Origin: Microscillaceae bacterium | Lineage (GTDB): Bacteria > Bacteroidota > Bacteroidia > Cytophagales > Microscillaceae | Direction of reading: 5' to 3' | DNA: 64,000 nt | Assembly (NCBI GenBank): GCA_011390205.1 | Contig: JAABSX010000008.1 | Coordinates: 1-64,000, forward strand | In this document: piece after piece, positions 15,635 through 21,034 of the stretch | Position numbering within the stretch: position 1 is the first letter of the stretch | Layout: each line of letters begins with the position of its first letter | Notes under the pieces: generated by a model | The model's database searches: none | Told to the model about the DNA's origin: nothing | What the model saw: the letters and a program-made list of their open reading frames with translations, nothing else | Program-made: the position numbers and the translations under genes

Positions 15635-17107
15635 TTAATTTTTTGGGGTGATGCCCATTTTGCGCAATACACGGTCAGAGATATTTTCTGTCTTTGGTGA
15701 AGCATAGCAAGCTTCTGCTCTCAGGACAAAAGTGTAGTTTCCTTCTTTGGCTACTTCATCTAGGGCTTTTTGTACTTTTTCATAGATAGGTGCCATTAGC
15801 TTGGCTTCTTGGCCCTGTGCATCTTGTTGTACACCTTGCTGAAAACGCTCAAACTGCTGCTGTAGAGTCTGTAACTCTCTTTCTTTACTTGCTTTGAGGG
15901 CAGGCGAGAGTGTGCCTGCTTCTGACCTAGTCTGATAATCTTTGAGTTTCATCTGAAACTCATCTTGCTTGCTTTTGAGTTCGTCTTGGATTTGTTTGGC
16001 ATAGACGGTCATCTCAGCCTCTGCACTTTTGTATTCGGGTAGCTGTGGGAGAATATATTGCAAATCAAAATGCCCTATTTTATTTTGGGTTTGAGAAGTA
16101 CTTGCACTTGTGGCTGTAGAATCAGCTACACCTAGTTTTTTGCCTACCAAGCCAGAGAGATTACTATCATTAGGCTCATAAAGAATCGTTTCTACTTTAA
16201 ATACATACGTATGTCCATTTTCCTTCGCTACCTGCTCTATGGTAGTTTGCACTTTTTCTAAGATAGGATTAATGAGTTCTGTATATTTTTTTTGGGCTTT
16301 AGTTTGTGCTTCTTGTGCTGCGTTTTGTAGGGCAGCCTGCAGGGTTTGTATTTCATCACGGAGGCGTTTTTTTGCATCGGCAGAGGCCGTTGCACTTTGC
16401 TCCATTTGCTCTAGCTGCTGTGCTTTTTGCTCTATGGTACTTTTTTGTGATTCTAGGTTTTCTTGCAGTTTGCCATTGTAGGTTTCTATCTGTTTTTGGG
16501 CTTGCTTGTATTCAGGGATTTGAGGAATTATCTGATTGCTATTAAAATAGCCCAATTTATTGGTAGATTTGAGTGAACCTCTATTGGCAGGAGAATCTGT
16601 TGGAGAGATTCCAAGTTTGCGAAGTACGGCATCCGATACATTGTTTTCTTCTAACTCAAAGAGCAAGGATTCACGTCGCAAAATATACATTCCACCCTTT
16701 TCGGCAGAGATATCATCTACGGCTTTCTGGAATTTCTCTTCTACTGGCACGAGTTTTTTGTTAAGCTCATCGCTGTATTCTTGCTGTAAAGACTGCTGTA
16801 GCTCCTGCATTTGTTTTTCCATTTCCTGAAGTTCTGAGTATCTGACTTGTAGGAGAGATTCATTAGGGTTGGTGGCTTTTGCCATTTCTTCTAATTCTTT
16901 GACCTTTTTCTGAAATTCTTCTTCTTTTGACTTAATCTCAGTGGAGGCAGTTTCTTCATAGGTTTTCATTTCTTCTTGTACTTTTTTGTACTCGGGCATT
17001 TTGCCCAGTACATATTCAGCATCTACATAGCCTATTTGTTGTGCTTGTGCCGTTAGGGAGGCAAAGAAGCCTAGGCATACCATCCAAAAAAAATAACTTG
17101 TTTTCAT
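15635..17107 (-). CDS. Three tandem OmpH/Skp domains in one periplasmic protein
   Basis: 490 residues: a signal peptide (1-22, ending AQA) followed by three Skp-like units at about 24-169, 184-329 and 343-488, offset by 160 and 159 residues. Each opens with a matching strand and helix start (QIGYVDAEYVLGKMPEYKK, KLGYFNSNQIIPQIPEYKQ, KIGHFDLQYILPQLPEYKS). Each continues as an 80-residue Glu/Gln/Lys-rich coiled coil and closes with a strand and a final short motif (VLRKLGISP, VGKKLGVAD, VLRKMGITP). Linkers are 13-15 residues rich in Ser, Thr and Asn. Ordinary Skp is a single unit of about 160 residues acting as a homotrimer that holds unfolded outer-membrane proteins. One chain here could supply all three arms. 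It is last in the bamA-ompH series, 33 bp after the single-unit ompH. Confidence 0.93.
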   Translation of the reverse strand: MKTSYFFWMVCLGFFASLTAQAQQIGYVDAEYVLGKMPEYKKVQEEMKTYEETASTEIKSKEEEFQKKVKELEEMAKATNPNESLLQVRYSELQEMEKQMQELQQSLQQEYSDELNKKLVPVEEKFQKAVDDISAEKGGMYILRRESLLFELEENNVSDAVLRKLGISPTDSPANRGSLKSTNKLGYFNSNQIIPQIPEYKQAQKQIETYNGKLQENLESQKSTIEQKAQQLEQMEQSATASADAKKRLRDEIQTLQAALQNAAQEAQTKAQKKYTELINPILEKVQTTIEQVAKENGHTYVFKVETILYEPNDSNLSGLVGKKLGVADSTATSASTSQTQNKIGHFDLQYILPQLPEYKSAEAEMTVYAKQIQDELKSKQDEFQMKLKDYQTRSEAGTLSPALKASKERELQTLQQQFERFQQGVQQDAQGQEAKLMAPIYEKVQKALDEVAKEGNYTFVLRAEACYASPKTENISDRVLRKMGITPKN

Positions 17108-17140: not shown

Positions 17141-17683
17141 TTAATCTTTATTTTCAGGGTTTTCGGGGTCTTCTGCGAGTCCAAGCTCTTCGAGTACTTC
17201 TTCTGTATAATCGTGTTTGGGCTCTGCATAGATAATCGTCAATCCTTGTGAGTTGGTAAATATGAATTGCAAGCTTTTTTTACGTGCCACTTTTTGTACA
17301 GCTTTGTAGAGTTCTTCTTGTGCAGGTTTGATGAGTTCTTGCTGTCTTGAGAAGAAAAGCCCTTCATAGCCAAAGATTTGCTGCTGCATATCCTCTACTT
17401 TTTTAGCATCCTCTTCTAATTCTTTTTCTCTTTCCTCTATCATTTCGGGGGTGAGCAGTAGTTTTTCTGCTTCATAGGCACCTCTTTTTTCTTGTAAGAC
17501 GTTGTTTCTCTCTTGAATGTCTTCTCTCCACTTTGCGGCAGCCCCTAAGATTTCTTGTTGGGCTTTTTGATAAGAAGGCATTTGCTTCAAAATAAAATCA
17601 GCATCTACATACCCGAATGTCTGTGCAAAAGACAAGGTAGTGGAGCAAAAGACCAAAAAGTATATAAGAGCTATTTTTTTCAT
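17141..17683 (-). CDS. ompH: OmpH/Skp-family periplasmic chaperone, single unit
   Basis: I place the start at the ATG at 17683, giving 180 residues that begin MKKIALIYFLVF, a clean signal peptide ending SFAQ. An ATG at 17713 would add ten residues and spoil it. The mature part is one Skp unit: TFGYVDADFILKQMPSYQKA, a long charged coiled coil, then LQFIFTNSQGLTIIYA and EEVLEELGL. Skp-like proteins escort unfolded outer-membrane proteins to BamA. An acidic Asn/Pro/Glu tail (LAEDPENPENKD) ends it. It lies between bamA and the triple-unit gene, so one OmpH transcript probably delivers both chaperone forms. Confidence 0.9.
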   Translation of the reverse strand: MKKIALIYFLVFCSTTLSFAQTFGYVDADFILKQMPSYQKAQQEILGAAAKWREDIQERNNVLQEKRGAYEAEKLLLTPEMIEEREKELEEDAKKVEDMQQQIFGYEGLFFSRQQELIKPAQEELYKAVQKVARKKSLQFIFTNSQGLTIIYAEPKHDYTEEVLEELGLAEDPENPENKD

Positions 17684-17807
17684 TTTCAAAAAATCAAGTG
17701 CTTGCATACGCATACAAAACTGCTTTTGGTCTAAATAATTTTAATTTTCTCAAAGTCATAAGTCCAAAAAGAGTGCTTTAACTTACTATTAACGCCCTAA
17801 ATCTTTC

Positions 17808-20276
17808 TTAGCGAAGCTGCTGACCTATAGTAAAGTGAAACTGCCCTCCGCTGAAGTCATTGCCCTGCCCAGGCACACTGTCAAAGCCGTAGCCCCAGTC
17901 AATGCCTATCATCCCGAAGGCTGGCATAAATATCCTTGCACCCACACCTGCCGAGCGTTTCATATCAAAAGGATTGTATTCGGCATAGTTTCCAAAGTTA
18001 TTTCCTCCTTCCAAAAAGCTCAACACAAAGATAGTAGCTGCAGGGTTCAATGATATAGGATAACGAAGTTCCATCACAAACTTATTATAAATCACACCAC
18101 CTGCTTGTCCTACAGGCGTGATAGAGTTGTTGGGGTATCCTCTTAGGCCTATGATTTCAAGACCTAGCAAAAAGTTTTGCCCCGTAAGCCCATCACCACC
18201 TAGCACAAAACGCTCAAAGGGTCCTGCTTCTAGCTGTGAGTTATAGACTCCGATGTATCCAAAGTGTGCCCGAGTATGCAAGACCAAATCACCGACAAGG
18301 CGTGTAAACCACGAGTTGTCAAACATCCACTTGTGGTATTCTATGTATTTAAACCTCTCTGCATCCAAGGTGCTAAAGCTTCCATCTCTAAACAATGAGT
18401 AAGGAGGTGTTACATTGACACTTAGGGTCAGGTTAGAGCCACTTCTTGGGAAGGTAGGGCTGTCTATACTGCTTCGGTTGATGGTAGTATTGAAAGAGAA
18501 GTTTTGGAAAGTTCCGTTTCTTAATGTCTGTGTAATGGGATAATCATCCAAGCCATACCTCAGGTATGAGAGTGAATTAGAGAGTGTAAAGTAATTATCA
18601 GGCCATTTAAGTCTTCTTCCTAAGCTGATGGTAGCTCCTGATACTTGGAGAGAGCCTAGCACATCTCCACTGAAGGTGATGGTTCTCTGCACTGAGTGGC
18701 TTAGGTTAATGCTAAAAGAGTTGGGTTTACGCCCACCAAGCCAAGGTTCAGTAAATGTAAGAGAGTAGGTCTGAAATCTTCGTCCATTGGCTTGTAATCG
18801 GAGTGCGAGTCTTTGTCCATCACCTGAGGGTAAGATTCCGCCCCATTCTTTTACTTTGAGAAGTTTTTTGATAGAGAAGTTATTAAAGACTAGCCCCAGA
18901 GTACCCACAAAACCGAAAGCTCCTCCCCAACCTCCTGAGAGTTCTATTTGGTCGCTTGGTTTTTCTACAAGGTCATATTCTATGTCCACAGTTCCGTCTT
19001 GCATATTCGGGATAGGGTTAATGCCTACCTGCTCAGGGTCAAAATACCCAAGCGTAGAGAGTTCTCTTTGAGAGCGGATAAGGTCAGTGCGGCTAAACTT
19101 CTGCCCAGGCACGGTTCTGATTTCCCTCATTACTACTTTGTCACTGGTTTTGGTATTTCCATTAATGACTACCTTATTAATGTTTGCTTGTGAGCCTTCA
19201 TAGATACGCATTTCTATATCTACCGAATCTCCCACGATGGCAATTTCTACGGGGTCAATGCTAAAAAACAAATAGCCATCATCCATATAAAGTGAGGTAA
19301 TGTCTAGGTCGGTAGGGCTAAAATTGAGTCTTTTTTCTAGGTTTTCGAGGTCATAGACATCTCCTTTTTCTATGCCCAAGACACGTCTGAGGGTGGCATC
19401 GTCATAGACATAGTTACCATGCCAAGTGATATTTCGGTAATAATATTTCTGACCTTCGTCTATATTCACGATGATTCCGATGCTTTCACTGTCAATGTTG
19501 TAGATGCTATCTCCTGTGATTTTAGCATCTCTGTATCCTTGTGATTGATAGTACTGGACTAGTTTTTCTTTGTCTGTTTCATATTTTGATTTTACGAATT
19601 TAGAAGAGGCAAAGAGTCTAAATTTCTTTTTAGACTTGGTTTTTGATTTTTTGGTAAGTTTTTTATCAGTGATGGCTTCATTTCCCTTAAAGATGAGGTC
19701 AGCAACTTTTACTTTTTTGCCTTTATTGACATTGATTTTGAGTAAGACACTGTTAGAGATGAGTGTATCTTGTACCTGTACGATATTTACGTTGGTATTG
19801 AGGAAGCCCTTTTCCTGAAAGTGTGTCTCGATTCTTTTTTTGGTATTTTTGAGCAGGCTTTGGGTTACAATTCTTCCTACGATGAGGGATGTTTGGTCTT
19901 TGACGGTCTGTGTTTCTCCTTTTCTGATGCCATTGATGAAGTATCGGCTGAGCTTGGGGCGTTCGGTGAGTTGTATATTGAGATAGACCTTGTCTCCTTC
20001 AAATTTAGTGGCATTGATGCCGACATCTCCAAGGATGCCTTGTTTCCATAGTTTTTTGATGGCATCGCTGATTTTGGGGTCTCCTGGCAGCTTCACCTTG
20101 TCTCCTACTTTTAGTCCTGAGAGAGAGGTAAGTGCTACAGGGTCTAAGTATTGCACTCCTGAGACGGTAATTCCTGCTATTTCGTATTCTTTAGGTGTGC
20201 CGTCATTGTTTGTTCTTTGGGCATTTGCACTGAGTGCTAGACACATTAAGATAGATAAAATCCAATATTTTTTCAT
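17808..20276 (-). CDS. bamA: Outer-membrane protein assembly factor BamA (Omp85)
   Basis: 822 residues with signal peptide (1-19, ending ANAQ), about five POTRA repeats (25-450), then a 16-strand barrel. POTRA features include YEIAGITVSGVQYLDPVAL, RNITWHGNYVYDDATLRRV and INKVVINGNTKTSDKVVMRE. The barrel start IELSGGWGGAFGFVGTLGL and the lid-lock motif in IIGLRGYPNNS are diagnostic; the protein ends in an aromatic/basic strand (FHFTIGQQLR). A lysine-rich insertion (KKLTKKSKTKSKKKFRLF) lies in a middle POTRA. It folds beta-barrel proteins into the outer membrane. It follows uppS by 8 bp. Confidence 0.95.
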   Translation of the reverse strand: MKKYWILSILMCLALSANAQRTNNDGTPKEYEIAGITVSGVQYLDPVALTSLSGLKVGDKVKLPGDPKISDAIKKLWKQGILGDVGINATKFEGDKVYLNIQLTERPKLSRYFINGIRKGETQTVKDQTSLIVGRIVTQSLLKNTKKRIETHFQEKGFLNTNVNIVQVQDTLISNSVLLKINVNKGKKVKVADLIFKGNEAITDKKLTKKSKTKSKKKFRLFASSKFVKSKYETDKEKLVQYYQSQGYRDAKITGDSIYNIDSESIGIIVNIDEGQKYYYRNITWHGNYVYDDATLRRVLGIEKGDVYDLENLEKRLNFSPTDLDITSLYMDDGYLFFSIDPVEIAIVGDSVDIEMRIYEGSQANINKVVINGNTKTSDKVVMREIRTVPGQKFSRTDLIRSQRELSTLGYFDPEQVGINPIPNMQDGTVDIEYDLVEKPSDQIELSGGWGGAFGFVGTLGLVFNNFSIKKLLKVKEWGGILPSGDGQRLALRLQANGRRFQTYSLTFTEPWLGGRKPNSFSINLSHSVQRTITFSGDVLGSLQVSGATISLGRRLKWPDNYFTLSNSLSYLRYGLDDYPITQTLRNGTFQNFSFNTTINRSSIDSPTFPRSGSNLTLSVNVTPPYSLFRDGSFSTLDAERFKYIEYHKWMFDNSWFTRLVGDLVLHTRAHFGYIGVYNSQLEAGPFERFVLGGDGLTGQNFLLGLEIIGLRGYPNNSITPVGQAGGVIYNKFVMELRYPISLNPAATIFVLSFLEGGNNFGNYAEYNPFDMKRSAGVGARIFMPAFGMIGIDWGYGFDSVPGQGNDFSGGQFHFTIGQQLR

Positions 20277-20284
20277 GGTAATTA

Positions 20285-21034
20285 TTAAGGCTTTACTTGT
20301 TCGCTTGTGAGTCCGAATCTTCTTTCTCGGTGTTGGTAATCTAAGATGGCTTCATATAAATGTTCTCTTCTAAAGTCTGGCCACAAGATAGGAGAGATAA
20401 ATATTTCAGAGTAGGCGATTTGCCAGAGTAAAAAGTTACTAATCCTCATTTCTCCACTTGTACGTATGATTAGTTCGGGGTCAGGGATGTCTTTAGTATC
20501 AAGGTATGTCTCGAAATAATCTGCATCAATCTCTTCTGGCTGCACTGTACCTTTTTGTATATCTTGGGCTATTTTTTGGGTAGCTCTAATGATTTCACTT
20601 CTTCCGCTGTAGCTCAGTGCCAAGATAAGGTTTAGCCCTGTATTATTTTTGGTAAATTCTATCGCTTTTTCTAGTCCTTTTTGGCACTCAGAGGGCAGTG
20701 TATTAACCTCCCCGATGCTAGAGAGGCGTACATTGTTTTGGTGTAGGTTTTTTACTTCTTTGTTGATGGTGCTGACGAGCAGCTGCATCAGGGTATTTAC
20801 TTCATACTGGGGTCTTTTCCAATTTTCGGTAGAGAAAGCATACAATGTCAAGTGCTTTATGCCAAGCTCTCCAGCGGCTTCTATGGTATCACGGACTGCT
20901 TTGATGGCACTTTTATGCCCAAAGACTCGCATTGCTCCCTGTTTTTTTGCCCATCTTCCGTTTCCATCCATAATGATTGCAATGTGTTGTGGAAGTTTAT
21001 TTGGGTCAATTAAATCTTTCTTGACTACATCCAT
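20285..21034 (-). CDS. uppS: Isoprenyl transferase (undecaprenyl diphosphate synthase)
   Basis: 249 residues, the usual length. The signature IAIIMDGNGRWAKKQG holds the catalytic Asp and the diphosphate-binding loop. LTLYAFSTENWKRP, LILALSYSGRSEI and LIIRTSGEMRISNFLLWQIA are the other conserved blocks. The enzyme adds isopentenyl units in cis to make the C55 lipid carrier for peptidoglycan and surface polysaccharides. It is the first gene of the uppS-bamA-ompH run, with a well-formed promoter about 80 bases upstream. Confidence 0.95.
   Translation of the reverse strand: MDVVKKDLIDPNKLPQHIAIIMDGNGRWAKKQGAMRVFGHKSAIKAVRDTIEAAGELGIKHLTLYAFSTENWKRPQYEVNTLMQLLVSTINKEVKNLHQNNVRLSSIGEVNTLPSECQKGLEKAIEFTKNNTGLNLILALSYSGRSEIIRATQKIAQDIQKGTVQPEEIDADYFETYLDTKDIPDPELIIRTSGEMRISNFLLWQIAYSEIFISPILWPDFRREHLYEAILDYQHRERRFGLTSEQVKP

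Follow-up and report, generated by a model that had tools for sequence, protein, structure and literature searches.

The periplasmic chaperone Skp normally works as a homotrimer, and a gene encoding three Skp units in a single polypeptide raises the question of whether such a chain can form the trimer on its own. This gene lies in the window analyzed here, a stretch of 64,000 nucleotides from a Microscillaceae bacterium (order Cytophagales), as an open reading frame of 490 amino acids with an ATG start (Table 1). The first-pass annotation had rightly taken this frame as a gene; its strand is corrected here to minus, the plus strand over the same positions being full of stops. The OmpH/Skp domain PF03938 occurs three times in the chain (Pfam, whole-protein E-value 2.4e-85), each unit matching over its full length and far over the cut-off of 32.4 bits used in the genome-wide domain search. 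Unit starts are spaced by about 159–160 residues, in agreement with the offsets of 160 and 159 read initially, and identity among the three units is 25–36%, far beyond chance. Furthermore, the hydropathy of the chain displays one N-terminal hydrophobic segment, ending in AQA, and no later one, as expected from the single signal peptide proposed at the outset. The description of both linkers as Ser/Thr-rich holds for linker 2 only, linker 1 carrying an RGxLK motif instead.

The gene directly follows a single-unit ompH gene in the uppS–bamA cluster, as originally described, the minus-strand order being uppS, bamA, single-unit ompH, three-unit ompH, and an LD-carboxypeptidase-type gene; successive genes are separated by 8, 94, 33, and 86 bases. 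Five OmpH domains are found genome-wide, namely the three units, the single-unit neighbor, and a divergent single one, and in this search none of the three units had a further copy outside the chain. The divergent domain belongs to a lone OmpH protein of 240 amino acids (C36:204152-204583), which groups with a Rhodocytophaga protein located outside the usual ompH pair. The window units share with Escherichia coli Skp/OmpH the PF03938 domain and the strand-helix-coiled coil-strand fold, and the gene shares with it the operon with bamA and a signal peptide, predicted in the window chain; unlike canonical Skp, a homotrimer of one-unit chains, the window chain carries three different units.

Table 1. 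Positions of the three-unit gene, its parts and neighbors in the window, and of the SkpA-type two-unit chains in other genomes.
Feature	Position	Strand	Basis or remark
Three-unit OmpH/Skp (SkpB-type) gene, 490 aa	15635..17107	-	Open reading frame and profile matches
Predicted signal peptide, residues 1-22	17042..17107	-	Hydropathy; cleavage site inferred from sequence
Unit 1, OmpH domain, 91.9 bits	16613..17035	-	Profile match; unit-1 clade
Linker 1 (TDSPANRGSLKS), RGxLK motif	16559..16612	-	Motif common to two-unit relatives
Unit 2, OmpH domain, 97.8 bits	16133..16558	-	Profile match; unit-2 clade
Linker 2 (VADSTATSASTSQTQNK; STATSASTSQT...), fusion joint	16082..16132	-	Without remnant of a unit-3 signal peptide
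Unit 3, OmpH domain, 119.8 bits	15656..16081	-	Clusters with the free-standing one-unit gene in relatives
Single-unit OmpH, SkpA type	17141..17713	-	Best PDB match F. johnsoniae SkpA, E 2.5e-24
bamA (POTRA + Omp85)	17808..20276	-	Pfam
uppS	20285..21034	-	Pfam
SkpA-type two-unit chains	L139:13038-14144, L140:4060-5124, L138:11501-12541, L178:13047-14156, L254:3127-4194		Flexithrix and relatives

In Bacteroidota, this operon contains two Skp genes, and the product of the second, SkpB, is unable to replace SkpA in F. johnsoniae (PMC10994853). SkpA of this organism is a trimer built into the extended translocon of Type 9 secretion (8gl8, PMC10994853), while SkpB is apparently essential in F. johnsoniae and Porphyromonas gingivalis (PMC10994853). 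The first-pass annotation had suggested that the cell may have both an ordinary and a fused chaperone; taken as two forms of one chaperone, this is wrong, the neighbor being of SkpA type and the fused chain of SkpB type. Indeed, a 75-unit tree places the single-unit neighbor among the first ompH genes and the three units among the second; the match of the neighbor to the solved SkpA structure is far better than that of a one-unit gene related to unit 3 in another member of the family, G009 (only 5e-7); and across the order the best match of the chain is usually between unit 3 and the second ompH. Because of this tree grouping, contrast in E-values, and pattern of best matches, the fused chain occupies the place of SkpB, and the adjacent SkpA-type gene is not the source of the three units. 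Like the SkpB genes of F. johnsoniae and P. gingivalis, the window gene lies beside skpA in a conserved operon, and in the tree its units are placed on the side away from SkpA; the difference resides in the number of units per chain, one in the ordinary second gene and three here. The neighbor is the homolog of the SkpA of the Type 9 translocon, which has the same fold as the units and is a homotrimer in the solved complex, whereas the fused chain is not of SkpA type. The Type 9 marker sprA is present in the genome of the window.

The two genes are adjacent and probably cotranscribed, and one could envisage that units of the fused chain assemble with the single-unit SkpA product into hetero-oligomers. 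We consider this quite improbable, as the SkpA and SkpB types separate in the tree, F. johnsoniae SkpB does not substitute for SkpA (PMC10994853), and two relatives, described below, have skpA on another contig while their SkpB-type genes remain together.

The origin of the three units was examined in a family sample of 15 Microscillaceae genomes, arrangements being taken from those with readable loci. Two single ompH genes are found in G001, G005, G013, and G014 (UBA8158), and four in G006 and G007, both Microscilla. Six other genomes (G002, G003, G004 (Prado074), G008, G009, and G012) encode a two-unit chain followed by a one-unit gene, adjacent in all six cases; skpA lies beside this pair in four of them, whereas G008 and G012 have it on a different contig and keep the pair together. 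The fully fused three-unit chain occurs in the window genome only. In the 75-unit tree, each window unit joins its counterparts: unit 1 clusters with the first units of all six two-unit chains (support 99/94), unit 2 with their second units (99/95), and unit 3 with the free-standing one-unit genes (100/98), except that of G003, which is divergent and falls elsewhere. A local triplication, with the three window units as one clade, was rejected at a cost of 78.6 log units (p-AU 3.8e-5), as was a clade of units 1 and 2 (52.4 log units, p-AU 7.4e-5). It follows from the unit clades and these tests that the units diverged before these genera and have kept their places since. The separate clades and the rejection of triplication also show that the window gene arose by fusion of a two-unit gene with the one-unit gene next to it and is not a simple repeat. 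No simple common pattern emerged in the charge differences among the units compared.

In the last step of this fusion, the third gene lost its signal peptide and the stop codon ahead of it was lost as well, the hydropathy of the chain displaying no hydrophobic remnant at the joint of units 2 and 3. G008 is one step short of it: its two-unit and one-unit genes are in frame and parted by a TAA codon, a few further codons, and a signal peptide. This open stretch of 560 amino acids had been a candidate second three-unit chain and was discarded on account of the TAA. These observations also bear on an assembly or sequencing artifact that would have joined separate genes. Although only one genome of the family has the three-unit chain, a missed stop would have left the signal peptide of unit 3, as kept in G008, and the joint lacks it; the genome moreover has no separate unit-3 gene, which makes such an artifact very improbable. 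In Microscilla (L093:2605-4945 and L094), the four single ompH genes stand in a row and three are of SkpB type, their units being strongly basic and those of the relatives near-neutral or acidic; the tree does not settle a one-to-one match of these three genes with units 1, 2, and 3.

A search of Bacteroidota genomes for chains with several OmpH domains, already envisaged in the first-pass annotation, returned, besides the two-unit relatives, two further types of fusion. The first is a chain of 486 amino acids with three OmpH units in G210 (L101:2660-4120), from another Cytophagales family, encoded away from bamA, close to a thiL-like gene at a locus unrelated to that of the window, and whose units form their own clade in the 75-unit tree. 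A sample of 148 genomes from its family contained no second example. Full three-unit chains were thus seen in two genomes only, one of them from Microscillaceae. The second type, in Flexithrix dorotheae and relatives (5/5 genomes), is a two-unit chain of SkpA type located after a single gene of SkpA type, with units again in their own clades. Like the window chain, it is an OmpH fusion, and it makes three units in total with the adjacent single gene; it differs by its SkpA-type units, its separate origin, and its acidic linkers. This arrangement is relevant to the Type 9 translocon, in which SkpA is trimeric. Taken together, the sequences indicate that OmpH fusions arose at least three times and that like units total three at each fused locus found. 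This number is not universal for unfused paralogs, since SkpB-type duplicates totaling two occur (Flammeovirga, Bernardetia), and many Flammeovirgaceae have two SkpB-type single genes.

The wider survey covered class and phylum samples of 395 genomes each with an SkpB-heavy profile, among the matches listed, and rare multi-unit chains could be missed in it. BamA served as the query for reaching further genomes; the three-unit chain as query gave no match. Of the long tandem matches in these class and phylum samples, those inspected (G703, G112, G531, G679, G912, G1132, G881, and G1112) proved to be neighboring single-unit genes. Two genomes from another class of the phylum encode three consecutive single-unit ompH genes (L230:1633-3261 and L234:749-2441), which may be a further set of three paralogs. 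A literature search within an open-access library yielded no description of chains with several OmpH domains.

How the three units are arranged relative to each other was addressed by structure prediction, with an outcome only partly favorable to a single-chain trimer. In the AlphaFold2 model of the mature window chain, built from an alignment of 12 rows only (MAFFT alignments with many one-unit rows were in the wrong register and were left out of folding), each unit folds as Skp, with a mean pLDDT of 70.7 and a pTM of 0.40, and the secondary structure repeats in all three units. The good Foldseek matches of this modest-confidence model are all Skp (8gl8 SkpA, 4kqt, and 1u2m, probability 1.00). 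Because of the pTM of 0.40, the packing between units is not placed in this model. Superposition with VIA-align of the Skp rows onto this low-confidence model covers 139–146 residues at 2.3–3.8 Å over a model range from 1 to 463–465; as only about one third of the chain is aligned over this whole range, the aligner must draw together the beginning of unit 1 and the last part of unit 3. These residue ranges suggest that the chain ends meet in a closed, ring-like model, perhaps with exchanged strands. The model of the independent G210 chain reaches a pLDDT of 77.9, with about 83–94 in the head regions of unit 3, and a pTM of 0.61. A pTM nearer one third would be expected for three unrelated rods, and therefore at least two units are mutually placed in this model. 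Intramolecular packing of the three units is likely.

The positions involved in trimer contacts were also compared. In E. coli Skp, A103 and A108 lie in the trimer interface, and A108R abolishes trimers while A103R weakens them (PMC7577714). Among single-unit proteins, the A103 position is Ala in 65 of 68 of SkpA type and in 67 of 89 of the second-gene set, this sorting being automatic, by motif, with some rows misfiled. In the multi-unit set of seven related sequences, this position is Ala or Thr in unit 1, Lys in 5/7 cases and otherwise Gln or Thr in unit 2, and a mixture of small residues in unit 3; the A108 position is Ser in unit 1 (5/7) and always Ala in unit 2. Both positions were numbered along an E. 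coli Skp row used as a guide. The contact positions thus seem to differ between units in a conserved manner, as expected for fixed places, in a set of only seven related sequences.

Each unit has mostly small residues at one or both interface positions and, in the model, keeps the whole Skp fold, features also compatible with stacked heads, in which units 1, 2, and 3 of three chains would each trimerize with their own counterparts into a row of three Skp heads with nine arms, and the pTM of the window chain does not place the units. Such stacking gives no reason for a total of three, which is nonetheless seen in every fused case found, and the single G210 chain attains its pTM without partner chains; we regard it as unlikely. 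The covalent trimer suggested initially gains from the 2+1 and three-unit arrangements, the separate unit clades, and the independent fusions totaling three, while structure prediction favors it only in part. Since the fused cases total three, in one chain or as 2+1, we consider it probable that the window chain is a natural asymmetric covalent Skp trimer, a fused SkpB with one head.

According to this covalent-trimer reading, SkpB would have been duplicated into three paralogs with fixed places in one three-armed head, made as a two-unit and a one-unit chain in most relatives with extra units and as one chain in the window. After secretion, the three units would come together as a pseudo-trimer with a nine-stranded head and three different arms, and the single cavity between the arms would hold unfolded outer-membrane proteins en route to BamA; like SkpB, the chain may be essential. 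E. coli Skp monomers are disordered, half of the protein being monomeric at 1.5 µM (PMC7577714), and this monomer-trimer equilibrium is considered to govern the activity of Skp. The window chain would instead fold within one chain, independently of chain concentration and without the need for three chains to meet.

The evolutionary series described here makes the idea of a covalent trimer testable. The succession of single, 2+1, and fully fused genes amounts to a natural experiment leading from homomers to heteromers and to fused chains. If the reading is true, a single-chain trimer would show that the monomer-trimer equilibrium is dispensable, each Skp arm would become mutable on its own, and a handle would be gained on SkpB and its essential role in Bacteroidota. 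By a slight balance of the evidence, several Cytophagales lineages may have exchanged the Skp homotrimer for an obligate heterotrimer, its three different units having fixed places, and tied it together by independent gene fusions into natural chaperones of one chain or of 2+1 chains with permanently asymmetric client cavities.
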